Below the pieces are notes generated by a model. That model searched no databases, was not told where the DNA came from, and saw only the letters and a program-made list of their open reading frames with translations. DNA of 64,000 nt from contig JANWKT010000017.1 of assembly GCA_025451235.1 (NCBI GenBank), positions 62,001 to 126,000 of the forward strand, written 5' to 3'. Numbering within the stretch: the stretch's first letter is position 1; the number at the start of each line of letters is the position of its first letter. This DNA comes from Flavobacteriales bacterium (GTDB lineage Bacteria; Bacteroidota; Bacteroidia; CAIKAF01). Shown in pieces: positions 16,501-45,215 of this stretch. Both the position numbers and the translations under genes were made by a program.

Positions 16501-19500
16501 TAAATTCATCCCGGCAAACATGGTTGCTGCAGCAGCAGGAGCATTGGTGGTATAATCAATCTTGCTGATCGTATTGTTCTGGATGCTATTCGGAATTAAC
16601 CCGGTTATAACAGACATCCCTATAAACTGATGGCTCACTCCGGCTCCGGATACCGTAAGTGTCATATCCCCGCCAGTAGCTCCTGGAGCTGTTCCTCCAA
16701 TAAAATTATTACTGATGGTAAAGCCTCCATTATTATTTAACACAGAAGTATTAGCAATATTGATCCCCCTGGTTACTGCACCCGAAACGGTATTTGTTCG
16801 TGTGGTGGTTTGGTAAAAGCTATTTCCGGTAATGGTAAAGCCTGAATTACCAACACCAATATTCATTCCATATTGAGCGTTTCCATTCAATAAGAACCAA
16901 TCATGGATATTGTTATTTGTAAAACTACAATTGTTGTTATACTGGGTGAAAGATCCTGTACTCCCCACACAATTAATTCCCATAGCTGGTGTGCCGGCCA
17001 CATCACTGCGGTCACGTATTTCACAAAAAGAGATCGTGTTGTTATCATTTCCATTTGTTCCGGTAGTAGCCCCTATATGCACTACTCCCCCCAATGTGGT
17101 AGAAGTGGCTGTGTTGCCACTTTCGAGAATTGAATACTGTACGGTATTGTTTTGCGCATCATTGAGGAAGCCAATGTCAGGAGCAGAATTAGAAGTGTTT
17201 CTGAACAATAAATAAGTTCCACTTCCTGCAAATCTTCCATCGATCGTAAAACGATCTGCACCATCAAAACGGACCAAGCTGCTGGCCGCACTGGCTCCTG
17301 AAATAGTTCGCAATACAGGTGCACTTGGCGCCATAGTAATCGTGTAGCCACTTCCACCGGTTTCGGCCCATTGGTTCAATGGGAAAGTCCCGGTTTCTGC
17401 TGTTAAGTCGCCAGTGATACTAATAGTAATATTCCCGCTAACTACACCACTGTTGATCAGGTTAAATATTCCACCTGCATTGGTTAAGGAAGTAATGGTT
17501 TCGGTTGGACCAACAGGAATCACACCGGAATATGCATTGGCAACGATGGTAAATTGATTGATGGTATTGGTAAGAGGGAAATTTGCAGCAGCCAAATTTA
17601 CGCTGGCGGGCTGTACAGTGAACCCTCCATTATTTAATCCAATTCTGGGTGTTGAATTCAAATCCTGAGCGGTTACAAAATATTGAATGATATCGCCAGC
17701 AACTACTCCGCCTCCGAATAGAAGGGTATAATTCATCGTAAAATCAAAAGGGCTCGTGGCATTCGATGCCTCTACAAATTTCCAGCCATCCGTTCCATTG
17801 GTATTGTTATTAAAAGTATTGGCATGCGTTGATTTCTTATAGTACAACCTGGGTCGGGTGCCTGGGGTATTATTGATTCCGGTAGGATCTGTAATGGTGG
17901 CAAAAGAGGGAATTACCCTATTTGCGACTACATTAGAATTTCCTAAAAGAACATATTGTATATCCGGAGACGCAATGTCATTCATGTTTCCACCGAATTC
18001 GTCGGCTCCAACATCAGGTGCAGCTGCAAAACCTGCCGTAGGAAAACCTGCAATCGGGTAACGGTTTTGACCGTCATAATCGGTTGTTACAAAAGTGGAA
18101 GCTTTTCCACCGCTTTCGCATTGGGTAGGTGATCCTGCCAAGATGTGCAGGTTATAGGGAGAAACAGCAACGTTTGTAAATGGTGGAAGCTCTGAAAAGG
18201 ATGCCTGCTCCCGAGGGCCTACCAGGTTTTTAAGTGCCTGGATGGTTTGAAGATTGTTAGTACCGTCCGAAAAGACCAGGTTAGAGGCACTTGGAACTCC
18301 GGCATATAAACAATTATGGCCTGATAACAGGTTATAGTTCGTTAAAGAGGTGCTACCTCTTACCAATGCCCGGGTGATTCCCGTTCCAATAGGTGTAGAA
18401 TTATTTGTAGCAATATTACCACGCAGATCGATGCTTATTGGCGTTGTACCACAAACGATGGCTGCCGTTCCAAAATTTGCACCAACACTGGTCGCATTTA
18501 AATAGACGGTATTGTTAGAGGCTTCTATAGTGGAGGCAGTGGTTCCCTGGAGCCAAAGACCATACGCGGCATTGGTATTATTCGCATTGGGTGCTTCAAT
18601 CTCAGAAATAAAATTATTGAATACTTGGTTCTGAACATTCACATTAACACCAATATTGATACCATATGCAGCAGGAACTGCACCTGTGGCGCTGTTATTG
18701 ATGATATTATAAACGTTGTTATTGTATACTTTACTTTCTAGACCATAATTAACCCAAATGGCCCCTACACTTGCGCCGGCTGGACTTCCGGTAAGATCAT
18801 GTATGGTATTGCCATACACAAGTTTGTTGGTGGTTCCTGTTCCGGATTGTACAAATAAGCCTATTACCTCTCCGGTGCCACCACTTAAATTGTATACCTG
18901 GTTGTTATATACGTTCTCAAGAATTCCAACCGCAAAATTATAGTAGCCGTAAACCTGGCCTGAAGAGCTGGTAGCAGAGTTATTGAAGAGTTGGTTCCCA
19001 AAACAATTGGTCTCCACAGTGCTTCCACTGGCATAAATACAATTAAAAATTCCGGCGGTGCCTGTCTTTGCATTACCACTAACGATATTATCATTGATGT
19101 TGACCTCTAAAACAAGGGTTGCAGAAGAACCAGAATAGTAGATTCCACTAAACATTCCTGTTCCAGGAATAGAATTATTCGAAACGGTATTATTGTATAT
19201 ATTAGAATAACTGGCTATAGCAGTATGTGATATTCCCCTGAATTCTCCTGTGGTATTGGTGGGATACGTACAACCCGTAATTACATTGTGATGGATATTA
19301 ATGGTATTTCCAGCGCCTGTTGCCCCTGAGGTGTTATTGATCCCTATAATGGTAGAAGTGGTTGCCGCACTGGTAAGGGTAATGGTATCGTTATAAACAT
19401 CAGTATTGGCGTTCGTTGCCGTGTTGATAAAAATTCCATTCATGGCACCTGTGGATCCTGCACCCCCATCAACACATGAATTAAATACTTTTATTTTATT

Positions 19501-20292
19501 TTGGTTAATGGTAACAATCCCATTGACTGTAGTAGCGCCGCCACCAAAATTAGTAACTAAACTTCTGCGGGTACTTATCCCATCCACACCAATTTCATTT
19601 TGCTGGTCATACAAATCATAAGGAGCTGCAGAAGCATAACCTACTAGAGAATAACCAATATAGCAGTTCTGAACCGTATTGTTGTAAAATTTATTATAGC
19701 TATGGGACCCTGCATGAGATGCAACCGTAAGACCGGTCGTGGAAGCAGAGGTATGATTTGCACTATAGATCCCTATAGAAGCAGTATTCGTCTTATTGAG
19801 TGTAACCGTACTGTTTTTAATGGTATTGAAATGACATCCATTGGTGGTGGATGTTTTTACCAGGGCATATCCCCATTCCATTTGGGTGGTGGGGGTAACA
19901 TTGGCAGCATTTTCCTGCAGGTCGATTCCATCGATGGTAACATTATTTACTCCATTCAGGATAAATATCCCATCCAAGGTGGTTGATACCCCGGTAAATG
20001 CTGTGATCAAGGGATTCGTTCCGGCACCTGACTTCTGAATCACCAAAGGGTTAACAGGATTGGGGGTATTGGTAGCGATAGTTAATAGCAGAGGGGCTGA
20101 AAGGGTTTCGGTATATCCGGCCGCTACAGCAATAGTAGCTCCACCAGCACCTACTCCTTGCGCATTAAGATCAGTAATCGCAGCCTGCAAGGTGGGGTAA
20201 GTGCCCGGTACGGTCTGTACTCCTGTAATTTGGCCTACCGCTCCAGTAAGACTTAAAAACAAGGCACAACTAAAAACAAATAATTTTTTCAT
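13582..20292 (-). CDS. giant secreted beta-helix adhesin-like protein with T9SS C-terminal domain (2236 aa)
   Basis: The start is placed at the ATG at 20292, where a canonical signal peptide begins (MKKLFVFSCALFLSLTGAVGQ); a longer frame to 20397 has no such signal. Two right-handed parallel beta-helix regions (Asn-rich turns such as YNNTVQN, GNTIHDL, NNNTIQNLSN) occupy about residues 100-700 and 1000-1560, each followed by DVGADEF. A choice-of-anchor D/ASPM-like domain follows (about 1690-1820; AADFTVTANPGSP, NIQGTGD). Then come four HYR-like 73-residue repeats and a T9SS type A sorting domain (LNMYPNPGNGLV to the end). It is expected to be exported through the T9SS and anchored on the surface. 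It is probably in one transcript with the 104-aa gene upstream. Confidence 0.9.
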   Translation of the reverse strand: MKKLFVFSCALFLSLTGAVGQITGVQTVPGTYPTLQAAITDLNAQGVGAGGATIAVAAGYTETLSAPLLLTIATNTPNPVNPLVIQKSGAGTNPLITAFTGVSTTLDGIFILNGVNNVTIDGIDLQENAANVTPTTQMEWGYALVKTSTTNGCHFNTIKNSTVTLNKTNTASIGIYSANHTSASTTGLTVASHAGSHSYNKFYNNTVQNCYIGYSLVGYASAAPYDLYDQQNEIGVDGISTRRSLVTNFGGGATTVNGIVTINQNKIKVFNSCVDGGAGSTGAMNGIFINTATNANTDVYNDTITLTSAATTSTIIGINNTSGATGAGNTINIHHNVITGCTYPTNTTGEFRGISHTAIASYSNIYNNTVSNNSIPGTGMFSGIYYSGSSATLVLEVNINDNIVSGNAKTGTAGIFNCIYASGSTVETNCFGNQLFNNSATSSSGQVYGYYNFAVGILENVYNNQVYNLSGGTGEVIGLFVQSGTGTTNKLVYGNTIHDLTGSPAGASVGAIWVNYGLESKVYNNNVYNIINNSATGAVPAAYGINIGVNVNVQNQVFNNFISEIEAPNANNTNAAYGLWLQGTTASTIEASNNTVYLNATSVGANFGTAAIVCGTTPISIDLRGNIATNNSTPIGTGITRALVRGSTSLTNYNLLSGHNCLYAGVPSASNLVFSDGTNNLQTIQALKNLVGPREQASFSELPPFTNVAVSPYNLHILAGSPTQCESGGKASTFVTTDYDGQNRYPIAGFPTAGFAAAPDVGADEFGGNMNDIASPDIQYVLLGNSNVVANRVIPSFATITDPTGINNTPGTRPRLYYKKSTHANTFNNNTNGTDGWKFVEASNATSPFDFTMNYTLLFGGGVVAGDIIQYFVTAQDLNSTPRIGLNNGGFTVQPASVNLAAANFPLTNTINQFTIVANAYSGVIPVGPTETITSLTNAGGIFNLINSGVVSGNITISITGDLTAETGTFPLNQWAETGGSGYTITMAPSAPVLRTISGASAASSLVRFDGADRFTIDGRFAGSGTYLLFRNTSNSAPDIGFLNDAQNNTVQYSILESGNTATSTTLGGVVHIGATTGTNGNDNNTISFCEIRDRSDVAGTPAMGINCVGSTGSFTQYNNNCSFTNNNIHDWFLLNGNAQYGMNIGVGNSGFTITGNSFYQTTTRTNTVSGAVTRGINIANTSVLNNNGGFTISNNFIGGTAPGATGGDMTLTVSGAGVSHQFIGMSVITGLIPNSIQNNTISKIDYTTNAPAAAATMFAGMNLGQGIFNVGATTGNIIGGATGNDLIRITINAGGAVNSFLAGILAAGVTGYYDIQNNTIGGITISGTTVTGGIIPQWIQVQGTPAQNNVISNNLIGSTTTANSIRQIATGPAVVSFAIRNIINTGVVTTINNNTIQNLSNASTNAGTAEYGMLMISTVGAQAPLTITNNTIRNISSAVSPAAPTLSLLGISVQGYGGNGHNISDNTISSLYGTSTAGVSPYVIGIQTQGSSLGGTMSSNRIFDLRNPSTSGNGGLSGIYMSAGNGWNVHNNMISISNGANTNTLNFTGMAEFCTGTLNFHHNSVYIGGSMIGVGTNTFCFTSGNNSNLYLQNNLLYNERTGGAGTSHCAIGNAAGTPALWSNLKVNNNVFIVTDTTKIGQWGPTNTYDLPGWQTISNADNNSKRIINILEPSATVFVSTTTGDLHNSTSSFPSNEGIPVAGITVDIDTDPRSVTTPDVGADEFTAQPDIEVVGNLNIIYNGDITPGFTDSTDFGNILECTGTISKTYTIRNLGDLNLTITGVTITGTNAADFTVTANPGSPVAGGASTTFTITFDPGGVGLRTATVNIATNDADENPHTFNIQGTGDADILAPVPNAANIDVTVECSTTLTAPTATDNCVPTVTGTTGDPLTYSSQGTFVVTWTYDDGNGNTVTQTQTVTVDDVTAPATPSIPNANGECSVSVTAPTTTDNCLGTVTGTTGDPTTYSSQGIFVITWTFDDGNGNTTTATQTVNVDDVTAPTTPSIPGASGQCSVNVTAPTTTDNCSGTVTGTTGDPTSYSSQGTFVVTWTFDDGNGNTTTATQTVTVDDLTAPVADNASLPALSGCSVTITVTPTATDNCIGAITATTGDPLTYSTVGSFVVTWSYTDGNGNTTTQTQSVTVIDCSGINEEISFDLNMYPNPGNGLVTITLSQLPQGETELKLIDQLGQVLYTNAVQNLTQSYDFSYLPAATYYVQIIGKDVNLTRKLIITHKD
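13861..14736 (-). repeat. four in-gene tandem repeats of about 219 bp (73 residues)
   Basis: Four copies of an HYR-like unit encode the pattern DDVTAP...C...TAPT.TDNC.GTVTGTTGDP..YSSQG.FV.TW..DDGNGN. The period is 219 bases between the middle copies, and the first and last copies are more diverged. The two middle copies are nearly identical at DNA level, a sign of recent duplication or gene conversion. Confidence 0.85.
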
Positions 20293-20329
20293 AGTTTGAA
20301 AATGATTAAGATGGATAGTATTAAAAATA

Positions 20330-20644
20330 TTATTCAGTAATAATAAAAGAAGCCTGGTCTTCGATAATAAATTTCTTTTTCTCAGGTGGTAAAGCATCGA
20401 AATCTGCTTTTTTAATAACGGTCTTGTTTCCTGGATTGGATCCTGTTGTTTTTACCAGGTTACCTTGTGCATCCGGAACGTAAACAATTATTTGATCTAC
20501 CACAGTTGATGTGGTACTCACTTTGTTTTGATCAACACTTAATTGTGGAGGATTGGTTGGGGTATTGGTTTGAGCGAAAGCCCTTGCTCCCATTAAAAAC
20601 AAAAAAGTTACCAATACTGCTGAACTGATGTGAATAGATTTCAT
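20330..20644 (-). CDS. small secreted protein of unknown function (104 aa)
   Basis: The protein has a signal peptide (ending ARAFAQT) followed by a Thr/Asn/Pro-rich linker and a compact segment (QIIVYVPDAQGNLVK; FDALPPEKKKFIIEDQASFIITE). No family is recognised. It lies 37 bases upstream of the giant adhesin gene on the same strand, so the two probably form an operon and it may be a partner or folding aid for the adhesin; this is inference. A TACATTTG box lies upstream at 20702-20709. Confidence 0.75.
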   Translation of the reverse strand: MKSIHISSAVLVTFLFLMGARAFAQTNTPTNPPQLSVDQNKVSTTSTVVDQIIVYVPDAQGNLVKTTGSNPGNKTVIKKADFDALPPEKKKFIIEDQASFIITE

Positions 20645-35037: not shown

Positions 35038-37605
35038 TCAGAATCCTTGTTTCTTGAGATACCTTTTAAGTCGCCCATTCTTCTTCACCACATCAAATTC
35101 TGTATGTGCCATCAGATCTATATCTACAAAGCCTTGAATGCGCACCACTTCATCAAGATAAACAATGCATGCCTTCACATCGCCTCTCACCGCCATCACC
35201 ATAGCCATGCCCTTATAACCACCAACATAGGTGCTATCGAGCTCCATACACCTCTTAAAATAGGATTCAGCCTGCGCGTTCAATTGATTATCTGACTTCA
35301 GTAATGCCAATCCCAGGCGGGAGTGGTACGCCGCCATGTTGGGTTTTCTTTCAACTAGTTTGGTATAAATAGAAACTGCCCGATCATACTTTTGTAAATA
35401 ATTAAGATAAACAAATCCTAAATAATCAGTCCAAAGAGGGTTATAAGGATTCAACTCGGTGGCTTTCTTAAAACTTTCCTCTGCACGTTCATAGTCCCAT
35501 TGTTTAAAAAAACACAACCCCTTATCAAACCATGCTTCATCATTCAGGCTATCCAATTGAAGACATTTTTCCAGGTACATGATGGCCTCTCCATATTTTT
35601 CCAGCCCAATATATGTATCGGCCAAATATTCAATTGCATAAGGATCTTTCTTTGCAATTTGCATGATGCGGTCAACATAGATTTCAACGCTGTCTGTTTG
35701 ATCTGCCGCAAGTTTAAACGAAATAATATTACAAATCGCAGCATAGTTTGTGCTATCCAATTGCAAGGTGCGGTAATAACAAAATTGTGCAGAATCAGGT
35801 TGATCCAGTTTCTTAAACAGATGAGCCAATGTAACCCAGGAGTTTGCTTTTTGGGGGTTCAGGCTGATCCCTTTTTTGCAATAATAAAGGGCCGAGTCTT
35901 TTTTATTCAACTCGTAATTGATCCACGCCAATCTTCTATAAATGCTCACGTAATCTGCATCCAAGGCCAATGCTTGCAAATATAATACTTCAGATTCCTT
36001 GTAATTCCCCTGGTTCTCATATACACTTGCCATATTAAATACGGGATACATCCAATTAGGAGCTAAGAGATGGGCCTGGTGAAAACATTCATTCGCTTTT
36101 TCATATTCATACATAGATCTCAATACAAGTCCTTTGGCATTGATCAAATAGGCAGCCTCTGGCTTAATCGCAATTGCACTGTCAAGCTTTGCCAGCCCTG
36201 CAGATAATTGAACAGAACCCGGTGATGACCAGCAGGCCATTCCTTCCAAAAACAATAAATTCGATTTGGCGTCCTGGGGATTCAACAGGATGGGGTCAGT
36301 AATTTCAATGCATACTTTTAGCTTTCGTACTGCATTTTTATAATATTCATGCTCCGTAACAGAATCTTTATCGTTCGATTGAAGGTAACGGTTGATCACC
36401 TCATTCACTTGTTCATTCAGCACTGTGCTCAATTGGAATTTTAATTCCCTGGCCAGGTAGGGCGTCACCTTTTTGTTGGATAACAAATCTTTCAATGAAG
36501 CATAAGCTCCCTTTTCCCCTAAAAGCTGGTTGTTGTGAATGGCATTCAGGTAATATTGGTATTCGGATTCCAGGCCGATCGCCTTCATTTCATATTCTAT
36601 TCCTCCTCCATAAGATACCAGCTGGTTGCTATCCTTTGATCCGGTACCATAGTTTTTCAGCAGGGACTGCAATCGCTTTTTATCTTCAAAACTCACTAAG
36701 CTCAATACCTGGGCATCCTTTTCGCTACAGCAATAGTAGGGAGTTTGTAAATATTCTTCTTTGCCGGCATCAAACCGGTCGTATTGAACTTGTTTTTTTA
36801 CATAATTATAAAGTTCACCCAAGGTTACTTTTTCATTCTCAGGATTGTCATCCGCCATTCCTTTAAGCCCATTGATCAGATGCCAGGAAAATACGCTGCG
36901 GCCATTGCCCCATTGGTAATCCTCCACAGCCACCTGACCCGAAGAGCAGGATGTCAATTGAATTTCACCTGCATTTTTTTCTACTATTTTTTCATACACT
37001 TGATTCTGCCCGGTCTGACCTCCCGGAATTTCATTGCTCCTGCAGGCGTCAGAAATAAAGATCACTTTTACTTTCTGGAGGGTCATTTGACTAATGGCCC
37101 CTTTGAGGTCATTTAAGTTGATCACACCAATACCTGTGAAATAATGATTCTTTTCTTTGCCTCCATTGGCTGCTGGAGCATCGTAGGCAAGCAAATAGGC
37201 ATGTTGAGGCCCAATGGCATCTCCATGGCCTGCAAAATAAATATAGACCACATCATTGTCTTTCACCTGGCCCATAATATTGATCATGCTATTCCAAAAA
37301 AGTTCCTTGGTGGCGGTTTTATTAATTAAAAGATCTATGTTGGCAGAATCTACCTTCCCTCCGGCAGGAGATATCAGGTAGTCATAAAACTCCTTCATGT
37401 CCTCATCCACAAACCTCAAAGTTTTATAGGTAGATTTATTTTTGTATTCGCCTACACCACATAAAAGTGCATAGGTGGTGGAGGTCTTATTTGTATTGGA
37501 GGTAACCGTGGGATTTTGGCCCTGCAATCCGGCCATTGAATTCGCAAAAATAAAAAGTAGCGAATATTTTAAAATAGTCATTTTTAACAGTCTCCACTTT
37601 TTCAT
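35038..37605 (-). CDS. secreted caspase-like (C14) peptidase fused to TPR repeats (855 aa)
   Basis: A signal peptide (to about residue 30, LQGQ) is followed by a caspase/metacaspase-fold domain (about 42-290). It has the catalytic dyad His127 in YFAGHGD and Cys188 in FISDACRS, and a start typical of the family (YALLCGVGEY). From about residue 440 there are some ten TPR units (for example EKANECFHQAHLLAPNW, AEESFKKATELNPYNPLW) that reach the C-terminus. Metacaspase-like proteins usually cut after Arg or Lys. TPR units may recruit substrates or partners. The start at 37605 is supported by a TATATTTG box five bases upstream. Its cellular role is unknown. Confidence 0.9.
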   Translation of the reverse strand: MKKWRLLKMTILKYSLLFIFANSMAGLQGQNPTVTSNTNKTSTTYALLCGVGEYKNKSTYKTLRFVDEDMKEFYDYLISPAGGKVDSANIDLLINKTATKELFWNSMINIMGQVKDNDVVYIYFAGHGDAIGPQHAYLLAYDAPAANGGKEKNHYFTGIGVINLNDLKGAISQMTLQKVKVIFISDACRSNEIPGGQTGQNQVYEKIVEKNAGEIQLTSCSSGQVAVEDYQWGNGRSVFSWHLINGLKGMADDNPENEKVTLGELYNYVKKQVQYDRFDAGKEEYLQTPYYCCSEKDAQVLSLVSFEDKKRLQSLLKNYGTGSKDSNQLVSYGGGIEYEMKAIGLESEYQYYLNAIHNNQLLGEKGAYASLKDLLSNKKVTPYLARELKFQLSTVLNEQVNEVINRYLQSNDKDSVTEHEYYKNAVRKLKVCIEITDPILLNPQDAKSNLLFLEGMACWSSPGSVQLSAGLAKLDSAIAIKPEAAYLINAKGLVLRSMYEYEKANECFHQAHLLAPNWMYPVFNMASVYENQGNYKESEVLYLQALALDADYVSIYRRLAWINYELNKKDSALYYCKKGISLNPQKANSWVTLAHLFKKLDQPDSAQFCYYRTLQLDSTNYAAICNIISFKLAADQTDSVEIYVDRIMQIAKKDPYAIEYLADTYIGLEKYGEAIMYLEKCLQLDSLNDEAWFDKGLCFFKQWDYERAEESFKKATELNPYNPLWTDYLGFVYLNYLQKYDRAVSIYTKLVERKPNMAAYHSRLGLALLKSDNQLNAQAESYFKRCMELDSTYVGGYKGMAMVMAVRGDVKACIVYLDEVVRIQGFVDIDLMAHTEFDVVKKNGRLKRYLKKQGF

Positions 37606-37610
37606 GATCT

Positions 37611-37618
37611 CAAATATA
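37611..37618 (-). promoter_or_regulatory. -7 box TATATTTG five bases before the caspase-TPR start
   Basis: On the minus strand TATATTTG is followed by AGATC and the ATG at 37605. Confidence 0.5.
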
Positions 37619-37669
37619 GGAATTTCATCCTCTACTTAGTGCAAGGTCAACATTCTTTCACCGCTTGAT

Positions 37670-38575
37670 CTAATAGTATTCGTAACTAAATATCAGGGTT
37701 TCTGCCTCATGCCAGGCGGCACTGTATCCTTTGTTTTTGATGGTAACCAATTTCCCAGAGGCATCAAATTCAAAGAAAAAATCCACAAATGGATTTCCAT
37801 TTTCAATCCACTTCATTTCTTTTATCTGTCCATTCACATTATATACAATGGGATATTCGAATTTATATTCACCATCGTTTTTGATCAAAATTAACCTCCC
37901 TTTGGCATCATATACATAGGTAACCTCATTGGTGCCATACGGATCTTTTTGCACATAACCGATAAGCGTATCTCCTTTGTATTTATACGTGGTCCTTCTA
38001 TCACGCATATCATTCTTTTCTTCCGTTAATCTTCCTTCGCTGTATTTGTATTGGATGTTTTCTGTTATTCCTTCGGCGATCTCATTTTTTGTACTGATCA
38101 ACTTGCCATTGCTATAAGTATAATAGGTGGGGTCCGGCTCCGGGCCTCTTAAGTACATGATAAGATTCGACTGAACAAGTAGTCCGGATTGATAGATGAG
38201 TGTATCCTTTTTTATTTTATCCCCTGATTTCTCCCATAAATATCGGGTAACCTGGCCTTCGGTATTAAAGGTCCAGGAGACTTGTTCATAATTATCAATA
38301 TTTTTCCCATCCGCAACAATATTTTGTACAAATTTTACTTGTTTGATCTTGTTCTCTTTGATGTATTTTTCATCAAAGGCAAAAGGAACCCCGATCATCA
38401 TCTCCCTGAAATCCCGCGGAGTTACTTTGATCATCATCGGCCTGGGCATGGTATCATTCACCATCTGCTGACTGCTGTCAACTGTGGGTTGGTCTTGAGT
38501 TGATTTGGAAGATTTACCACAGGATAGGAGGGATAAAAAGCCGATTCCAATTACTAAAACGATGCTATATTTCAT
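37670..38575 (-). CDS. lipoprotein with YD/RHS-like beta repeats, unknown function (301 aa)
   Basis: The lipobox is LSLLSC (Cys19). The mature part has repeating two-strand units, for example EQVSWTFNTEGQVTRYLWE, YYTYSNGKLISTKNE, IQYKYSEGRLTEEKND and VTYVYDAKGRLILIKND, similar to the YD/RHS repeat style seen in many secreted Bacteroidota proteins. Its role is unknown. It follows the 163-aa gene with a gap of five bases and completes a three-gene transcription unit. Confidence 0.8.
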   Translation of the reverse strand: MKYSIVLVIGIGFLSLLSCGKSSKSTQDQPTVDSSQQMVNDTMPRPMMIKVTPRDFREMMIGVPFAFDEKYIKENKIKQVKFVQNIVADGKNIDNYEQVSWTFNTEGQVTRYLWEKSGDKIKKDTLIYQSGLLVQSNLIMYLRGPEPDPTYYTYSNGKLISTKNEIAEGITENIQYKYSEGRLTEEKNDMRDRRTTYKYKGDTLIGYVQKDPYGTNEVTYVYDAKGRLILIKNDGEYKFEYPIVYNVNGQIKEMKWIENGNPFVDFFFEFDASGKLVTIKNKGYSAAWHEAETLIFSYEYY

Positions 38576-38580
38576 GACAT

Positions 38581-39072
38581 TTATTTTTTTGTACTTGCTA
38601 ATTTGGCGCTAAAATCAGGAACCATGGATTTGAACAATGCCCTGGCATCATCTAATTTCCCCATAAGATTTCCATATTCCTTTCCTTTGCATTGACTCAT
38701 ATATCCATCCCATGGTGTGGTTCCATTCCATAAAAAGAAAAAAGAATCAGAACTCCCTCCGGCACAGCCTTTGGGGGCCGAGGTATAATCTTTGTCTTCT
38801 AATTTACAGGCCTTTAGTTTTTTTACAAAGCTTACAAATTGGATGGTGTTGATAGGATACGTTTCATCCAATAAGGCATCTTCCTTGCTTTGCACCATAA
38901 AATGTATTGAAATTTCTGATACCTCGATCATATAATTTCGTTGATCCTCAGGTAGTGCAGATTCGTCTTTAAAGCTATATAAAAAAGCCCCCACATAACC
39001 TTGGGCATATACGGTTGAGAAAAGAAACAGCGTAAATACAAGTTTTTTCATAAGCGATGAAGAGCTCTTCAT
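38581..39072 (-). CDS. secreted protein, paralogue of the upstream gene (163 aa)
   Basis: It has a signal peptide ending VYAQG and shares with the upstream gene the core pattern Y.I.V...I.F...S..D.LL.ETY.I.......FV.K..ACKL.DK.....GC.GG..D.F and the ending LFKSMVPDF..KLAST. The ATG at 39072 overlaps the upstream stop as ATGA, which implies translational coupling; an ATG at 39051 (MKKLVFTLFLF) is an alternative. Three cysteines in the mature part are shared. Function unknown. Confidence 0.78.
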   Translation of the reverse strand: MKSSSSLMKKLVFTLFLFSTVYAQGYVGAFLYSFKDESALPEDQRNYMIEVSEISIHFMVQSKEDALLDETYPINTIQFVSFVKKLKACKLEDKDYTSAPKGCAGGSSDSFFFLWNGTTPWDGYMSQCKGKEYGNLMGKLDDARALFKSMVPDFSAKLASTKK

Positions 39073-39554
39073 TTATTTTCTGTACTGGCTAATTTAACTC
39101 CAAAATCAGGAACCATGGATTTAAAAAGATCTTTGGCTTCGGCTATTTTTCCCCTGATATTCCCATAATCTTTCCCACCACAATGGTATACATAGCCCCA
39201 AAGCTCTCCCTTATTATTCGCATATTTTATGGTAAATGCATCTGTAGTTCCTCCAGTACAACCCTCGGTATCTTTATCAGCCAGTTTATCTTTTAATTTA
39301 CATGCTTGTATTTTTTGTACAAAATCATGGTATTGTGTAGAATCAATTTTATAGGTTTCATTCAATAAAACGTCTCCATAACTATCGATGCTGAATTGAA
39401 CCTGTGAATCGTCTACCTGTATGGTATAACTTCGATGGTAAGGGGGAGGAACTGAAGAATCGGTAAACCTGAAGGTAAAACTATCATTTGAATGCTGAGA
39501 ATGAATGATGGAGGCGATGAGCATACATAAAAGAATAAGTATGTTTTTTTTCAT
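39069..39554 (-). CDS. secreted protein, founder of a tandem paralogue pair (161 aa)
   Basis: The signal peptide ends IIHSQH. The conserved cysteines are in QACKLKDK, EGCTGGTTD and YHCGGKDYG, matching those of the following gene. The two are tandem duplicates that have diverged to perhaps a third identity. No known domain is recognised. It is the first gene of the unit 39554-37670. Confidence 0.78.
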   Translation of the reverse strand: MKKNILILLCMLIASIIHSQHSNDSFTFRFTDSSVPPPYHRSYTIQVDDSQVQFSIDSYGDVLLNETYKIDSTQYHDFVQKIQACKLKDKLADKDTEGCTGGTTDAFTIKYANNKGELWGYVYHCGGKDYGNIRGKIAEAKDLFKSMVPDFGVKLASTENK

Positions 39555-39685
39555 GGAAGGCTAAAATCTTATGGTCACAGCAAGATAATAAAATGTAAGA
39601 AAAAAGGGCTCCAAGGAGAAGCCTGCCTGCCAAGGCGCATGGCCTATGCATCGGCAGCCAGGCTATACGGTAGGGCCACAAAACC

Positions 39686-39794
39686 ACTTAAGACGGTAAG
39701 ACTTAGGACTTAAGATAACCAGGTATAGGCCTTTAGCCCGTCATTACTGCGATTAATTTGGTCTTTAGCCCTCAGTTGCTTTCATCTTAAGTCC
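39686..39794. repeat. CTTAAG-rich inverted and direct repeats in the intergenic gap
   Basis: The gap 39555-39832 holds several copies of ACTTAAGAC/GTAAGACTTAG/GGACTTAAGAT, and an 11-base perfect inverted pair GGACTTAAGAT (39706-39716) and ATCTTAAGTCC (39784-39794). No gene is seen. The repeats sit between the divergent paralogue unit and the methyltransferase gene. Confidence 0.55.
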
Positions 39795-39832
39795 CTTTTT
39801 ATTACCTTCGCAGCACTTTTAACAAAAAAATC

Positions 39833-41065
39833 ATGAGCAAAAACGCATTAGATTTCATTGAGGTAAAATCTCCTTCAGCCAGAAGCCGCTACCAGAAAGG
39901 TAAAAGAGGTTCATTCGGACACTTTGTAGAAGACTATATCAGTGGCAAAGTAGATGTAAACGGAGACTTTGAAGAGTTTATGGATTTGAGAGCTACTTTT
40001 TTTGATTTTCACTTAACCGGAGATCATGTAAAGTTCTTCTTTACCCGTATGATACCTGAAGTGGTAAGCCATTCTAAAAAACAAGACGAGAGAATTGTAC
40101 GTGACCATTACGATAGAGGAAATGATTTCTTCAGCTTTTTCTTAGGCCCACGCATGGTATATACCGGAGGTTTCTGGATCGACCGTGAAAATGAAACATT
40201 GGAGCAAGCGCAGGACCGTAAAATGACCATGGTTTGCGAAAAACTCATGATGAAACCAGGCGATAAACACTTAGATATTGGCTGCGGATGGGGAACCCTA
40301 ATTGCTTATGCTGCAAAGTTTTATGGAACAGATGGCACCGGAATCACCCTGGCACAGGATGGAACCGACCATGGTAACAAACAAATAGCTGCCCATGGCC
40401 TACAAGACCGTGCCCGGATCCTTAGAATGGACTATAGAGATATGTTGTATAACCCATCCAACACCCAGAAATTTGACAAGATCACATGTTTGGAAATGGG
40501 AGAACACGTAGGTATCCGTAAATTCCAGGGATTCATTAATAAGATCTATGATAAATTAAATGATGATGGTATGTTCTATATCCAGCAAGCTGGTTTAAGA
40601 GCAAACCCAGGGATCATGAAAAAAGGCCGCCACTGGGAAGATTTGGTTTGGGGCTTATTCATGAATAAATATATTTTCTCCGGAGCAGATGCTTCTACTC
40701 CATTGGCTTTCTTGGTAAAAACCTTACAGGATGCCAACTTTGAAGTACAAACGGTGGAGAACATTGGTATCCACTATTCTCATACTTTACATGAATGGTA
40801 TAAGAACTGGGAGAAAAACAAAGAAAAAGTATTGAGCACTTATGGCGAATGGTGGTACCGTTTATGGAGATTGTTCCTGTATTGGAGCGTAGTGATCGTT
40901 GCTAACGGATCATCTACCTGCTGGAGTATTGCAGCGTACAAAAACCTGAACATTGATAAAGTGAACAGGAACCGTTATATCGGCAGAGAAAATCTAGGCG
41001 AAAGAATGATGTTGAAAAACGTACGGACCTTTGCAGTGGAAACTCCTTCTGCTGTATTAGGTTAA
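39833..41065 (+). CDS. class I SAM methyltransferase of the CFA-synthase family, sphingolipid C9-methyltransferase-like
   Basis: The 410-aa protein has the SAM-binding motif HLDIGCGWGTL and the cyclopropane synthase-type ends. Several phrases resemble those of fungal sphingolipid C9-methyltransferases rather than bacterial Cfa: DHYDRGNDFFSFFLGPRMVYT, TCLEMGEHVGIRKF, HWEDLVWGLFMNKYIFSGADAS and HYSHTLHEWYKNW. The C-terminus has a hydrophobic stretch (LWRLFLYWSVVIVA) that could anchor it to the membrane. The substrate is probably an unsaturated acyl chain or sphingoid base; Bacteroidota often make sphingolipids. It is followed by a strong terminator and has no obvious pathway neighbours. Confidence 0.85.
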   Translation: MSKNALDFIEVKSPSARSRYQKGKRGSFGHFVEDYISGKVDVNGDFEEFMDLRATFFDFHLTGDHVKFFFTRMIPEVVSHSKKQDERIVRDHYDRGNDFFSFFLGPRMVYTGGFWIDRENETLEQAQDRKMTMVCEKLMMKPGDKHLDIGCGWGTLIAYAAKFYGTDGTGITLAQDGTDHGNKQIAAHGLQDRARILRMDYRDMLYNPSNTQKFDKITCLEMGEHVGIRKFQGFINKIYDKLNDDGMFYIQQAGLRANPGIMKKGRHWEDLVWGLFMNKYIFSGADASTPLAFLVKTLQDANFEVQTVENIGIHYSHTLHEWYKNWEKNKEKVLSTYGEWWYRLWRLFLYWSVVIVANGSSTCWSIAAYKNLNIDKVNRNRYIGRENLGERMMLKNVRTFAVETPSAVLG

Positions 41066-41087
41066 TTAACACAACATGTAACTGAAT

Positions 41088-41121
41088 AAAAAACCCCGGG
41101 CGTAAATGTCAGGGGTTTTTT
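41088..41121 (+). terminator. intrinsic terminator after the methyltransferase
   Basis: AAAAAACCCC pairs with GGGGTTTTTT around a 14-base loop, and the T-run follows the stem. It lies between the stop at 41065 and the start at 41139 and could act in both directions. Confidence 0.85.
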
Positions 41122-41138
41122 ATTGATCATAAACATCC

Positions 41139-42089
41139 ATGAAACAAAAATCCCTTACTGAAATTCTCGACATCCAATATCCCATCATCATGGCCCCCAT
41201 GTTTTTGGTGACCAATACCGACATGATGATAGAGGCCATGAACAGTGGAATTGCAGCAGCCGTTCCTGCCTTGAATTATCGAACCGATGAAGAGTTCAGA
41301 AAGGCGATATTAGAGATCAGAAGTAAAACAACCAGCAAGGGACTTGGCATCAACCTCATCGTGAACAAATCAAATTTAAAAGTAAAACAACAGCTCATTA
41401 CCTGTGTGGAATTAGGGGTGGATTTTATCATTACATCGCTGGGAAGTCCGGCCAAAGTAATTGAAGCCTGTAAATCCAAAGGCATTAAAGTGTTCTGTGA
41501 TGTAGTAGAGGAAAAATACGCCAAAAAAGTAGAAGCATTGGGAGCCGATGCATTGATCGCTGTGAATTGCTATGCCGGCGGCCATGCAGGCAATCTTCCT
41601 CCTGAAAAGCTGATCCCTCTCTTGAAAAAACACTGTACCATCCCGGTGATCTCTGCCGGTGGTGTGGGTACCAAAGAAGAAGCAGATCGTATATTTGCTT
41701 TGGGTGCTGATGGCCTTTCCATTGGAAGTCCTTTCATTGCCTGTAACGAAGCCGGTATTTCGGATGAATATAAAAATGCCTGTGTGGAATACGGGAAAGA
41801 TGATATTGTAATGACCACCAAGATCTCCGGCACTCCATGTTCGGTGATCAATACTCCTTATGTACAAAGCGTAGGAACGAAACAAAACTGGTTCGAAAGG
41901 GTGTTGAGTAAAAATAAGCGGATCAAAAAATGGATCAAGATGCTCACTTTTTTAAAGGGAATGAAAGCCATTAACAAGGCAGCTTTCAGCTCTACTTATA
42001 AAACGGTTTGGTGTGCAGGGCCTAGTATTGAGCATACCTTGAAGATCCTTCCGGTAAAGGAGATCGTGGGGCGGTTTGTGGGGAAATAG
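41139..42089 (+). CDS. NAD(P)H-dependent flavin oxidoreductase (nitronate monooxygenase/FabK family)
   Basis: The 316-aa TIM-barrel FMN enzyme begins with the family phrase YPIIMAPMF. It has ITSLGSPAKVIEACK, the signature VNCYAGGHAGNLP with the family histidine, VISAGGVGTKEEADRIFALGADG and IGSPFIA. Members act as nitronate monooxygenases, enoyl-ACP reductases (FabK) or quinone reductases, and sequence alone does not decide among them. The C-terminal 70 residues (ERVLSKNKRIKKW...) are specific to the group common in Bacteroidota. It is monocistronic, bounded by a terminator and a palindrome. Confidence 0.88.
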   Translation: MKQKSLTEILDIQYPIIMAPMFLVTNTDMMIEAMNSGIAAAVPALNYRTDEEFRKAILEIRSKTTSKGLGINLIVNKSNLKVKQQLITCVELGVDFIITSLGSPAKVIEACKSKGIKVFCDVVEEKYAKKVEALGADALIAVNCYAGGHAGNLPPEKLIPLLKKHCTIPVISAGGVGTKEEADRIFALGADGLSIGSPFIACNEAGISDEYKNACVEYGKDDIVMTTKISGTPCSVINTPYVQSVGTKQNWFERVLSKNKRIKKWIKMLTFLKGMKAINKAAFSSTYKTVWCAGPSIEHTLKILPVKEIVGRFVGK

Positions 42090-42097
42090 TTCCTGTG

Positions 42098-42145
42098 CTT
42101 CGCACCTCCGGATCCCGACGTAGGTCGGGATCCGGAGGTGCGAAG
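42098..42145. repeat. perfect 22-bp inverted repeat with 4-base loop
   Basis: The left arm (42098-42119, starting CTTCGCACCTCCGGATCC) and right arm (42124-42145) are exact reverse complements with loop GTAG. There is no T-run, so it looks like a palindromic dispersed unit or very strong hairpin after the oxidoreductase gene rather than an ordinary terminator. Confidence 0.9.
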
Positions 42146-42157
42146 AAATAATTTCCC

Positions 42158-42165
42158 TACATTTA
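42158..42165 (+). promoter_or_regulatory. -7 box TACATTTA five bases before the start at 42171
   Basis: TACATTTA is followed by ACCAT and ATG at 42171. Its position favours this ATG over the earlier in-frame ATG at 42138. Confidence 0.45.
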
Positions 42166-42170
42166 ACCAT

Positions 42171-42698
42171 ATGAAACATCTTATCTACGTTTTTGCTATT
42201 CTGCTAGCCGGCTGCTCCGGTAAAGGTGCTTTTACCCATAAAGAATATAAACAGAAACACCTCGAGTTCCACCAACAACAGCTTGATTTTATCGACAAGC
42301 AATTGGCAGAAATTCTCATAAACTCCCAAAACTTATTGGATAACCTGGACACCACCAGTGTACTGATGAGTGTGGATGACAATATCCGGTTTAACTTCCT
42401 TGAAGAAAAATGGAATGCCACCTGCCAGTATATAAATAAGCTCCATGATGGAAATGAGATATACTTGAAGAGTATTATTCGTAATAAAGCTTCAGAGGAT
42501 ATTTGGTTCCAAATGATGGACGAGAATCAAAAACTTCATAGTTATATGAATATTCATCAGGTCAAGACAAAGGAGGCATTGATGTCGGGAGATATGGAGG
42601 CCCCTAAGCCCATTGTTCTGGAACTCGTAGAACTTTGTAAAACCGTATCCATTAAATTAAAGAGTTTGATCCAGGAATACCTGAAACTTTGTTCTTAA
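42171..42698 (+). CDS. alpha-helical lipoprotein, unknown function (175 aa)
   Basis: The lipobox is AILLAGC (Cys15-16 region), and the mature part is highly charged and helical with possible coiled-coil segments (HLEFHQQQLDFIDKQLAEILINSQNLLDNL). No family is recognised. The start at 42171 gives a clean lipoprotein signal; an upstream ATG would add a polar extension. It is convergent with the DUF5686 gene. Confidence 0.78.
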   Translation: MKHLIYVFAILLAGCSGKGAFTHKEYKQKHLEFHQQQLDFIDKQLAEILINSQNLLDNLDTTSVLMSVDDNIRFNFLEEKWNATCQYINKLHDGNEIYLKSIIRNKASEDIWFQMMDENQKLHSYMNIHQVKTKEALMSGDMEAPKPIVLELVELCKTVSIKLKSLIQEYLKLCS

Positions 42699-42707
42699 GA
42701 AGTCGTT

Positions 42708-45155
42708 CTACAACCCTACTGAGATCGCCATTTTAAAATAGAAATTCTGCAAAGGATCACCACTGGCGGTGGACCCATATCTGTAAAAGGTTCCGATCCC
42801 GAGCCCCATATTGTTTAGAACAAGGATATTATCTAATACAATCCCGCCTTCAAAAAATCCATGTTTCATGGTCTTAAAAGGAATACCGGCATGCCTGGGT
42901 TGGTCCCTGAGCCAGCCAAATCCAAAGTTGTGTACCAGGGATAATTCGGGTCGCATGAATTTTTTTACCCTGAAAAGAGGGCCGAAATTATGGGTAAAAT
43001 AAAGGGATACATAACTATCCATCAAAAACTCATTCGACCGCATGGTCTCAAATCCATTTCTGGAAACGACAGAAAAGTTGGAAAAAGTCCCGCGATTGGC
43101 AAAGAGCTTGGCATAAGGTGCCTCCCCGAAAATATATCCCCCTTCCAGCATGAAAGTGGTTTTACCGAGTTTTCTTACGTAAAAGTTTTGGGTGATCCTC
43201 CCCAATAATTTTGTATAGGAAAATTGCCCCCCCAACGCCTGCAAACTTTGAGTAATATGTAAGTGGATCACAGGGAATTTAGTGGCCTTGGCAATATATC
43301 TTTTGCCTACAGCAATGTATTTTTCTTTGATCCCCCAACGGGAGGTAAGCTCCACTTCTGTAAAATTATAATGTTGGTTGCCACTAGTATCCGGCAAATA
43401 ACGGTAAGCAAGTGTGGGATCCATTTGCTGATGGTTCATGGCGAATCTTAATTGCCAGTTGAGGACGGGCTTAATAAAAATACTCCCTTCAAACACCTGG
43501 ATACTATCGAATACATTCAACACCAATTGGCTAATAGCATTGTTCAAAACAATCGGACCCATCAAAGGAAAATCGGTATGCCCGCTTGAAAAAACATCCC
43601 GCTTATAATCAAAACGAAGCCGGATATCCATTTTTCTATAAGGCAAAAATTCAACAAAGCCTCCATACTTAATAGCCTTGTCATTGAACCCATAAGCAAA
43701 ATGGCCCCCGATCTTCATCCATTTCAACATGCGATGGTTGGTCTCGAGTCCGACCCCTAAACGAAATCCTTCATAATTATTAAATCCTAATACCTTATCA
43801 ATGGGAATATCTAAAATGGAAACACGGATCTTACCATCGAGGGCTGCTTCTAAAAAGTCGATTCTCTTTTCTAACTTCATTTGTTTCGAAAGACTATCGA
43901 TGGTTGTATAAGTGGTGGAATCCTTTTTATCCAGCTCGTTCTGCCTGTATTGAGGTAAAATCTTTCCCTGGTCCTTCACTGCATTTTCATCCACCTCTAC
44001 TTCAGCAGCACCAAATTCATTTTGTTTCAGGGGTGGATTGATTTGCACGTCCTGGATATAGGTCCTGGCTTCCACCACCATTTTATGATTTCCGATTCGA
44101 AAATTGTTCAATAACATATCCGTATTGAGCTGAACGGGGAACCAATGTCCATCCTCGAATCGGGTATACATATGTTGCACCAATACCTGCATCTGATTGG
44201 TAGTGGCAGGTGAGGCCACAGCCCGTTCCAATGCATCATACTTGATATTTACATGCAGAAATCCCTTCAATCCTTCCGCCTTTTTCCCTTTTTTGGGCAT
44301 GAAAGAAATAACGATCACCGTATCAGGCCCACTGAAATTGGTATCAACAATATTGTATTTATAATTGTCAAAAGCATCATTCGATAACGGATTGTTGTAC
44401 TCAGTACTTAGAATTTTAAAACTGTTATTTTCATAAAAAGAAAATGATTGAAGTTGGGTGGTCAAGGTGGAAAAAATGGGTTCTTTCAACCCGGATGTCC
44501 TCGATGCAATAATGGTCTCACTAATATTTCCCGGTTTTTTATATTTTTTCTCGGTCACCGATTCGTTGATGAAAAGGTGCTGGCGCTTAAACAGGTCTTC
44601 TGCTGCTTTACTCATCGTATCCGTTCCGCCACCTCCAAAAAGACCGGCCAATGGATTCACAATGGTGTCTTTCCTCGCAGTAAAAAGTGTTTTGTTATAG
44701 GTATGATAAACATAAGTGGAAAGATTGTCAGGATTCAATGAATCCCTATGGTGGATCACTCTTCTAATGATCGCATCAGCAGGATTGAGTCCGGGTCTTA
44801 TGGTCACTTCCGTCAGGTCATACGTTGCAGGGACAAGCAGAATCATAAAGCCTTTCTGTTTGCCGGGTTCCACTGTAACAGTGGTGGTTTTATAGCCTAT
44901 CAAAGAGATGGATAGTTTTACCGGAAGGGATTTCACCTCGAGGGAGAATTTTCCATCAATATCAGAATTTGATCCATTGGCGTTCCCGGCTTCTACAATA
45001 GAGGCAAAGGAGATCGGTGTATTCGTCACCTCATCCTTGATGGTTCCGTAGATGGTAACCTGAGCATGGGTAATTGATCCGATCAAGAAAAATAAGGCTG
45101 TCCATATACCATATCCCCATCTTTTGCTGTTCCTTGTATAGTGCACCCATGCCAT
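42708..45155 (-). CDS. DUF5686 outer-membrane protein with N-terminal CarboxypepD_reg domain (815 aa)
   Basis: After a signal anchor or signal peptide (to SITHAQ) there is a carboxypeptidase regulatory-like domain (about 25-110; VTIYGTIKDEVTNTPISFASIVEA). A long DUF5686 region follows, with IIRRVIHHRDSLNPDNLSTYVYHTYNKT, LSTEYNNPL and a beta-barrel end. These proteins are outer-membrane barrels of unknown role in Bacteroidota. The start is put at 45155 (MAWVHYT) because a TAACTTTG box lies six bases upstream, inside the first codons of the longer frame that begins at 45173. Confidence 0.88.
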   Translation of the reverse strand: MAWVHYTRNSKRWGYGIWTALFFLIGSITHAQVTIYGTIKDEVTNTPISFASIVEAGNANGSNSDIDGKFSLEVKSLPVKLSISLIGYKTTTVTVEPGKQKGFMILLVPATYDLTEVTIRPGLNPADAIIRRVIHHRDSLNPDNLSTYVYHTYNKTLFTARKDTIVNPLAGLFGGGGTDTMSKAAEDLFKRQHLFINESVTEKKYKKPGNISETIIASRTSGLKEPIFSTLTTQLQSFSFYENNSFKILSTEYNNPLSNDAFDNYKYNIVDTNFSGPDTVIVISFMPKKGKKAEGLKGFLHVNIKYDALERAVASPATTNQMQVLVQHMYTRFEDGHWFPVQLNTDMLLNNFRIGNHKMVVEARTYIQDVQINPPLKQNEFGAAEVEVDENAVKDQGKILPQYRQNELDKKDSTTYTTIDSLSKQMKLEKRIDFLEAALDGKIRVSILDIPIDKVLGFNNYEGFRLGVGLETNHRMLKWMKIGGHFAYGFNDKAIKYGGFVEFLPYRKMDIRLRFDYKRDVFSSGHTDFPLMGPIVLNNAISQLVLNVFDSIQVFEGSIFIKPVLNWQLRFAMNHQQMDPTLAYRYLPDTSGNQHYNFTEVELTSRWGIKEKYIAVGKRYIAKATKFPVIHLHITQSLQALGGQFSYTKLLGRITQNFYVRKLGKTTFMLEGGYIFGEAPYAKLFANRGTFSNFSVVSRNGFETMRSNEFLMDSYVSLYFTHNFGPLFRVKKFMRPELSLVHNFGFGWLRDQPRHAGIPFKTMKHGFFEGGIVLDNILVLNNMGLGIGTFYRYGSTASGDPLQNFYFKMAISVGL

Positions 45156-45161
45156 TGAATT

Positions 45162-45169
45162 CAAAGTTA
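45162..45169 (-). promoter_or_regulatory. -7 box TAACTTTG of the DUF5686 gene
   Basis: On the minus strand TAACTTTG is followed by six bases and ATG at 45155. It overlaps the longer frame, which is evidence against the start at 45173. Confidence 0.5.
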
Positions 45170-45215
45170 GCATAAACCTTCAAAACTATTGGTATGAAAA
45201 GATTGACCAACCTAT

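Follow-up and report, generated by a model that had tools for sequence, protein, structure and literature searches.

The sphingolipid C9-methyltransferase of fungi (EC 2.1.1.317) is represented by NCU07859, or scumbo, in Neurospora crassa and by MTS1 in Candida albicans. Sulfonolipids are the sulfonate analogues of sphingolipids. In the part of the N. crassa study available to us, the enzyme has 525 amino acids, transmembrane segments at residues 53-75 and 87-109 and an EHV triplet at 341, which the scumbo allele EHV341D alters (PMC9325734). In the same fungus, according to the accessible portion of a second report, mutants without the Δ8-desaturase send flux towards an unmethylated product while small amounts of the regular products remain (PMC6471014), and a desaturase partner is therefore expected for a relative that is read as acting on a sphingoid base. 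C9-methylation of glycosphingolipids and the C9-methyltransferases themselves are described as a fungal speciality in the available sections of two papers (PMC12942302 and PMC13161914).

Two other systems are relevant for comparison. Escherichia coli Cfa binds its catalytic bicarbonate through Glu239, His266 and Tyr317, and removal of the bicarbonate or of a ligand lowers its cyclopropanation activity, as stated in the accessible text (PMC11387697). BfaB and TmpB are homologous to Cfa and introduce a methyl branch in place of a ring; the available part of their description says that a conserved bicarbonate site was the basis for choosing them and that these 10-methyl fatty acid systems have a constant FAD-type partner (PMC7791843).

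Here we follow up a gene in a 64,000-nucleotide stretch of a Flavobacteriales genome (the window, meaning the whole stretch analysed), which an original prediction, made from the letters alone, had likened to fungal C9-methyltransferases more than to E. coli Cfa. Among the open-licence papers listed, judged by title and the start of the abstract, we found none describing the clade to which this gene belongs; the topics covered were C9-methyltransferases of bacteria, myxobacteria included, bacterial sphingolipids with methyl branches, and desaturases or methyltransferases of sulfonolipids.

The gene and its predicted fold

The gene and the sites discussed below are as follows.

39833..41065, + strand: gene for a predicted SAM-dependent lipid C-methyltransferase of a CMAS clade ('C9MT-like'), 410 aa, ATG start, zero internal stops
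40271..40294, + strand: SAM-binding motif LDIGCGWG, residues 147-154, invariant across the 17-member alignment A1
40502..40510, + strand: EHV, residues 224-226; E224 corresponds in the alignments to the E. coli Cfa bicarbonate ligand Glu239
40583..40585, + strand: Q251, in the column of the E. coli Cfa bicarbonate ligand His266 (alignments)
40649..40696, + strand: WGLFMNKYIFSGADAS, residues 273-288, clade signature region; A285, D286 and A287 are A, D and A in 50/50 clade rows, G284 and S288 are kept in 49/50
40775..40777, + strand: Y315, equivalent to the E. coli Cfa bicarbonate ligand Tyr317; kept in 50/50 clade rows and 96/96 others

All four phrases on which the original prediction drew are present in this reading frame: DHYDRGNDFFSFFLGPRMVYT at residues 91-111, EMGEHVGIRKF at 221-231, WEDLVWGLFMNKYIFSGADAS at 268-288 and HYSHTLHEWY at 314-323. 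Judged by the recurrence of close relatives in other genomes, it is no chance ORF, and its GC content is 0.41 (window, 0.405). At 215 bits, the protein clears the 27-bit cut-off of Pfam CMAS (PF02353). It stays far below what the more specific NCBIfam models require: 194.7 of 400 bits for E. coli-type Cfa (NF008686), 196.5 of 650 for CfaB, 161.5 of 600 for the Brucella type and 122.9 of 390 for the mycolic acid methyltransferases. The genome has no second strong CMAS match, five others reaching at most 59 bits. A viral origin was considered and set aside, as a scan of viral contigs returned ten relatives, none above 38% identity; two motif scans of viral contigs gave 0 matches, no plasmid copy was found in PLSDB at E 1e-40, and a search of the literature for the motif strings as text found no paper.

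An AlphaFold2 model built from a 38-row alignment has a mean pLDDT of 86.9, and on this model the 410-residue product of what is a real gene has the CFA-synthase fold. Solved CFA synthases share this fold along almost the entire model, with Z 31.5 and 35.7, the higher score belonging to the Aquifex aeolicus enzyme 7QOS (rmsd 2.4 over 321 residues, model residues 1-388 aligned). The catalytic domain is likewise shared with the mycolic acid methyltransferases and UmaA of Mycobacterium tuberculosis, with Z 35.6 over 281 residues for mycobacterial CmaA1 and 30.2-30.9 for UmaA. Two features of this comparison would suit an enzyme that methylates phospholipid-bound acyl chains at a double bond made by a co-occurring desaturase: the closest matches among solved structures bear the names of CFA synthases and mycolic acid methyltransferases, and the 7QOS alignment takes in the N-terminal part. 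The product would then be a mid-chain methyl-branched (or methylene) fatty acid, and sphingoid bases would play no part. We consider this a possible reading, if not a probable one, and return to it below.

A multi-phylum clade apart from ordinary Cfa

Within the window's own family, 10 of 16 genomes carry the methyltransferase (own genome included) at 74-100% identity, the nine carriers among the 15 other genomes lying at 74-95%. A search of 40 genomes (own included) found, outside this family, just Cfa-like matches of 27-33% identity in four genomes. On a broader scale, 13 genomes of a 395-genome phylum sample (own included) have the methyltransferase at 52-100% identity and at least 435 bits, the relatives in the 12 others lying at 52-69%; the scores form two groups, because the other 10 matching genomes reach at most 165 bits.

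A scan of named contigs with two generic peptide patterns revealed, among the matches listed, at least five more members, in MAGs of Bacteroidetes (64%), Kiritimatiellae (50%), Polyangia (46%) and Myxococcales (47%) and in Aureispira (48%), the next rows listed being at 37% identity or less. In Myxococcota, the phylum of the Myxococcales MAG, 23 of 282 genomes carry the gene at 42-51% identity, one of them (G516) as a fragment that was left out of the tree.

For the tree, 167 loci were reduced to 146 rows once duplicates and short rows were dropped. The clade label was set beforehand, at 40% identity or more and above 200 bits, and takes in 50 rows from Bacteroidota, Myxococcota and Kiritimatiellae; the best row outside the label has 202 bits, and identity outside it peaks at 37.2%. 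A single branch of length 1.2 (SH-aLRT 100) separates the 50 labelled rows from the 96 other CMAS rows, in what is a quick tree without bootstrap, rooted for drawing only, with the solved Cfa proteins themselves outside its rows. These sequences thus give strong support to a placement apart from ordinary Cfa, and the tree result that the original prediction had named as refuting it, a place firmly inside the ordinary Cfa enzymes, did not occur; placement as an ordinary Cfa was ruled out by this tree together with the active-site residues.

An altered bicarbonate site

The protein shares the SAM motif and the equivalents of Glu239 and Tyr317 with Cfa of the E. coli and Aquifex type. It differs from the solved Cfa enzymes, to which it is 25-30% identical, in the replacement of His266 by Gln, in its GADAS region and in belonging to a clade separate from the Cfa-type rows. 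Alignments to the E. coli, Lactobacillus and Aquifex enzymes all put Q251 at the His266 position, so that of the bicarbonate triad Glu (E224) and Tyr (Y315) are kept and the full three-ligand set of Cfa is broken. UmaA and MmaA1 differ from the window protein here too, as they keep the Cys and His columns.

Across the 146 rows, the His266 column is Gln in 50/50 clade members, whereas of the 96 others 81 have His, 11 have Gln and 4 have some other residue. Since 6 of these 11 rows are actinobacterial, Gln in this column does not by itself define the clade. An actinobacterial sub-clade (L089, L069, L100, L104, L093 and L121) also has Gln at the bicarbonate-His column. Glu239 is conserved on both sides of the split (50/50 and 94/96), and the Ile268 column is Ala or Thr in 50/50 clade rows and Ile in 85/96 others. 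The GADAS residues have the conservation given in the feature list, and W326 is found in 50/50 clade rows. With the His266 ligand replaced by Gln, the cation left after methyl transfer would probably be resolved by loss of a chain proton and not by ring closure.

A cyclopropane fatty acid synthase that has rearranged its active site and kept ordinary chemistry would explain the common fold, the retained Glu and Tyr bicarbonate ligands and SAM site, and the lack of any other CMAS match above 59 bits in the genome. We judge it improbable in view of the separate clade on its long stem, Gln at the His266 column and Ala or Thr at the Ile268 column in every clade row, and scores under the NCBIfam Cfa cut-offs.

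Gene neighbourhood in the window

Seven neighbouring proteins of the window (35038-45173) were scanned, and none matched a sphingolipid family. Directly downstream of the methyltransferase, at 41139-42089 (+), lies a FabK/nitronate-monooxygenase (NMO)-like flavoprotein that reaches 135 of the 453 bits of the FabK cut-off. A flavoprotein as next gene recalls the 10-methyl fatty acid operons of BfaB and TmpB, where a flavoprotein is encoded as partner, and so speaks for methylation of phospholipid acyl chains. The two cases also differ: the window flavoprotein is NMO/FabK-like and adjoins the methyltransferase in 2/26 loci, whereas the partner of BfaB and TmpB is of FAD type and constant, and their conserved bicarbonate site is changed in the window protein, all in so far as the available part of the source describes these systems (PMC7791843). 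A general operon with the downstream gene was rejected on the same count, 2/26 compared loci, and no conserved neighbourhood was found in Bacteroidota beyond close relatives.

Other ORFs of the window were noted in passing. On the minus strand, 35038-37605 encodes an 855-residue protein in which a caspase-like Peptidase_C14 domain at the N-terminus precedes TPR repeats, and 13582-20397 is an ORF of 2271 aa. The neighbouring ORFs 38581-39072 and 39069-39554 (both -), each of about 160 aa and with a slight overlap, are paralogues that share 66 identities over 166 aligned columns; Pfam gave no match for either.

Comparison with the fungal enzyme

The motifs may closely resemble those of fungal C9-methyltransferases, as the original prediction supposed. 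The layout of the proteins can be compared in numbers. The EHV triplet, at residue 224 of the window protein, is followed by 186 residues, against 184 in N. crassa. Unlike the two-transmembrane fungal enzyme, the window protein lacks a pair of hydrophobic segments at its N-terminus (no 19-mer before EHV reaches the cut-off). Such a pair is present in some of its relatives: an eight-row myxobacterial sub-clade (SH-aLRT 100) has N-terminal extensions, and in the seven rows measured (all except L287) two segments, assigned by hydropathy and not by a transmembrane predictor, start 278-283 and 247-262 residues before EHV, where N. crassa has 288 and 254. In these seven rows 174 residues follow the triplet.

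The two-segment sub-clade and the window gene fall inside one 34-row group (SH-aLRT 99), and the fungal layout is therefore present in bacteria, in the same group as the window gene. Kinship with the fungal enzyme would rest on this layout, set against published fungal figures, and on the presumed likeness of the motifs. A desaturase partner, in fungi the Δ8 enzyme, may be a further trait common to the fungal enzyme and the bacterial clade.

Desaturase and hydroxylase partners of the clade

In three genomes of the window's own family (G008, G011 and G013), the ORF next to the methyltransferase encodes a membrane desaturase. A desaturase 43-45% identical to the own-family one adjoins it on the same strand in a myxobacterium (G601), and FA_desaturase adjoins it at locus L289. 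In another myxobacterium (G525), an FA_hydroxylase (PF04116, -), the methyltransferase (+) and a Lipid_DES desaturase (PF08557, -), which has the N-terminal domain of sphingolipid Δ4-desaturases, stand in a row at L281:8330-11994, and in the Kiritimatiellae MAG (L045) Cyt-b5 and FA_desaturase ORFs lie just upstream of the methyltransferase on the same strand. The three-gene row at L281:8330-11994 is in its own right a candidate bacterial sphingolipid-modification locus. These two loci argue against phospholipid acyl chains as the substrate.

We searched 80 genomes for the adjoining desaturase family at E 1e-30 or better, with a query from carrier G013. Matches were found in 34/49 methyltransferase carriers and in 1/31 non-carriers, and the association recurs in Bacteroidota (18/22 against 0/17) and in Myxococcota (14/23 against 1/14, these 14 non-carriers being the first handles listed of 259 and no random draw); other carriers contribute 2/4. 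Within the window's own family, 9/10 carriers have the desaturase, each in two copies, against 0/6 non-carriers. Carrier G009 has no match to this desaturase. Matches above 200 bits are confined to carriers (19/49 against 0/31). Bacteroidota carriers outside the own family have matches of just 32-37% identity, which by sequence may perhaps represent another sub-family. NCBIfam gave no specific family for the co-occurring desaturase, a point in favour of the acyl-chain reading.

The Lipid_DES family (PF08557) itself is found in 4/23 myxobacterial carriers and 6/259 other Myxococcota (Fisher p 0.005), a p-value that, like the others given here, overstates independence because the sampled genomes are related. 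The association does not extend to Bacteroidota, where 1/22 carriers and 1/10 non-carriers have it.

Base-forming enzymes in the window's genome

The original prediction had proposed looking for serine palmitoyltransferase (SPT) in the genome. In our hands the genome, which is 98% complete, yielded three α-oxoamine synthase genes at E 1e-30 and no SPT, and what stands in its place is a cysteate acyltransferase. This protein scores 544 bits to 28EH against 232 to SPT 3A2B, has AKS where 3A2B has SAS and thus contains the diagnostic Lys; in the available text of the source, SulA/CFAT has Lys281 in place of the Ala of SPT (PMC9304779). The other two are KBL (536 bits to E. coli KBL) and a 234-bit match that is BioF-like by score only. 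The host thereby differs from the sphingolipid-making hosts of the fungal enzyme. As the cysteate acyltransferase is the nearest SPT-like enzyme in a genome where no SPT was found, the base is likely to be capnoid, that of a sulfonolipid, and not a true sphingoid one; from these sequences we take a capnoid base to be the most likely substrate base in this organism. The proposal of a methyl-branched sphingoid base or a related lipid as product is narrowed accordingly: a true sphingoid base loses ground and its capnoid relative is left as the likely one.

The genome also encodes a Δ4-type desaturase with both PF08557 and FA_desaturase matches (G000:C14:124024-124887; L197:1447-2475), at 60.9 bits for a family found in 0/14 control genomes. 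By eye, it lies a few kilobases from ribosomal-protein and EF-G ORFs, among look-alike small ORFs. FA_desaturase matches number 10 in this genome, so that a wide range of unsaturated lipids is conceivable, and the methyltransferase could act on another of them, for instance a terpenoid-like lipid or a chain that is polyunsaturated or hydroxylated. We regard this as very improbable, having found no specific evidence for it, while the linked genes to which a name can be given encode lipid desaturases and a fatty-acid hydroxylase. Two FA_desaturase pairs, each within a few kilobases, were noted at G000:C17:256500-264500 and 286000-295500. The genome's copies of the co-occurring desaturase are at G000:C17:258711-259604 and 261446-262366.

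Base-forming enzymes across carriers

In Myxococcota, an SPT-type match at E 1e-112 or better occurs in 11/23 carriers and 51/259 non-carriers (Fisher p 0.004); 12/23 carriers have no match at this threshold, and none of the 282 genomes reaches the curated SPT cut-off of 640 bits. Divided at 470 bits, a cut chosen post hoc and a lead only, the lower matches are found in 11/23 carriers against 14/259 non-carriers (p 1.8e-7) and those at or above it in 0/23 against 37/259. Two SPT-type matches, one per phylum, were compared with solved structures, and for both the closest is SPT 3A2B.

In Bacteroidota, all 12 carriers outside the own family show an SPT-type match that falls short of the curated cut-off (472-493 bits), and non-carriers (G264, G091, G220 and G184) have one too, at 463-495 bits. 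Cysteate acyltransferase was found in 16/16 own-family genomes searched (as a fragment in G001); being present in carriers and non-carriers alike, it does not track the methyltransferase. The idea that either base-forming enzyme tracks it in Bacteroidota was dropped, as both occur with and without it.

The Aureispira (G432) and Polyangia (G434) carriers, MAGs whose completeness is not established, have KBL and neither an SPT-type match nor a cysteate acyltransferase; G432 has one further, weaker α-oxoamine-type match at E 1e-30 without assignment. In the Kiritimatiellae carrier (G433, likewise a MAG of completeness not established), the search returned two enzymes without assignment. Carriers in which neither SPT nor cysteate acyltransferase was detected would fit methylation of phospholipid acyl chains, against which stand the SPT and Lipid_DES associations in Myxococcota. 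The occurrence of the methyltransferase with either base-forming enzyme fits a tail-modifying enzyme, without proving one.

Discussion

The idea of a sphingolipid-type enzyme fares unevenly. The tree, the lost Cfa ligand, the two-segment myxobacterial relatives and the desaturase and hydroxylase neighbours of sphingolipid type all speak for it, and the absence of a detectable SPT from the window's own genome speaks against it. Of the several readings weighed here, the best supported by the sequences is that the methyltransferase C-methylates a double bond in a sphingoid-like base, which we put forward tentatively and at somewhat less than an even chance.

The substrate, methylated position, quenching and product that we infer for this reading would combine as follows. 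A membrane lipid of sphingoid-like type would first receive a C=C double bond in its long-chain base from the membrane desaturase, and the soluble SAM-dependent methyltransferase would then move a methyl group onto a double-bond carbon. In the window's organism the base would most likely be the capnoid base of a sulfonolipid. The resulting cation would probably be quenched by loss of a chain proton, leading to a methyl-branched alkene, as in fungal C9-methylation, and not to a cyclopropane.

A wider scenario, which we think doubtful as a whole, is that a desaturase and C-methyltransferase module spread over several bacterial phyla makes mid-chain methyl-branched sphingoid or sulfonolipid bases, that gene transfer gave rise to the fungal C9-methyltransferase from the two-segment myxobacterial branch, or to that branch from the fungal enzyme, and that the module was re-used on sulfonolipids in the window's lineage. 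If true, the fungal C9-methyltransferase would gain a possible bacterial origin to test, a methyl-branched class would be added to bacterial sphingolipids and sulfonolipids, and genes annotated merely as 'Cfa' would become testable for another lipid.
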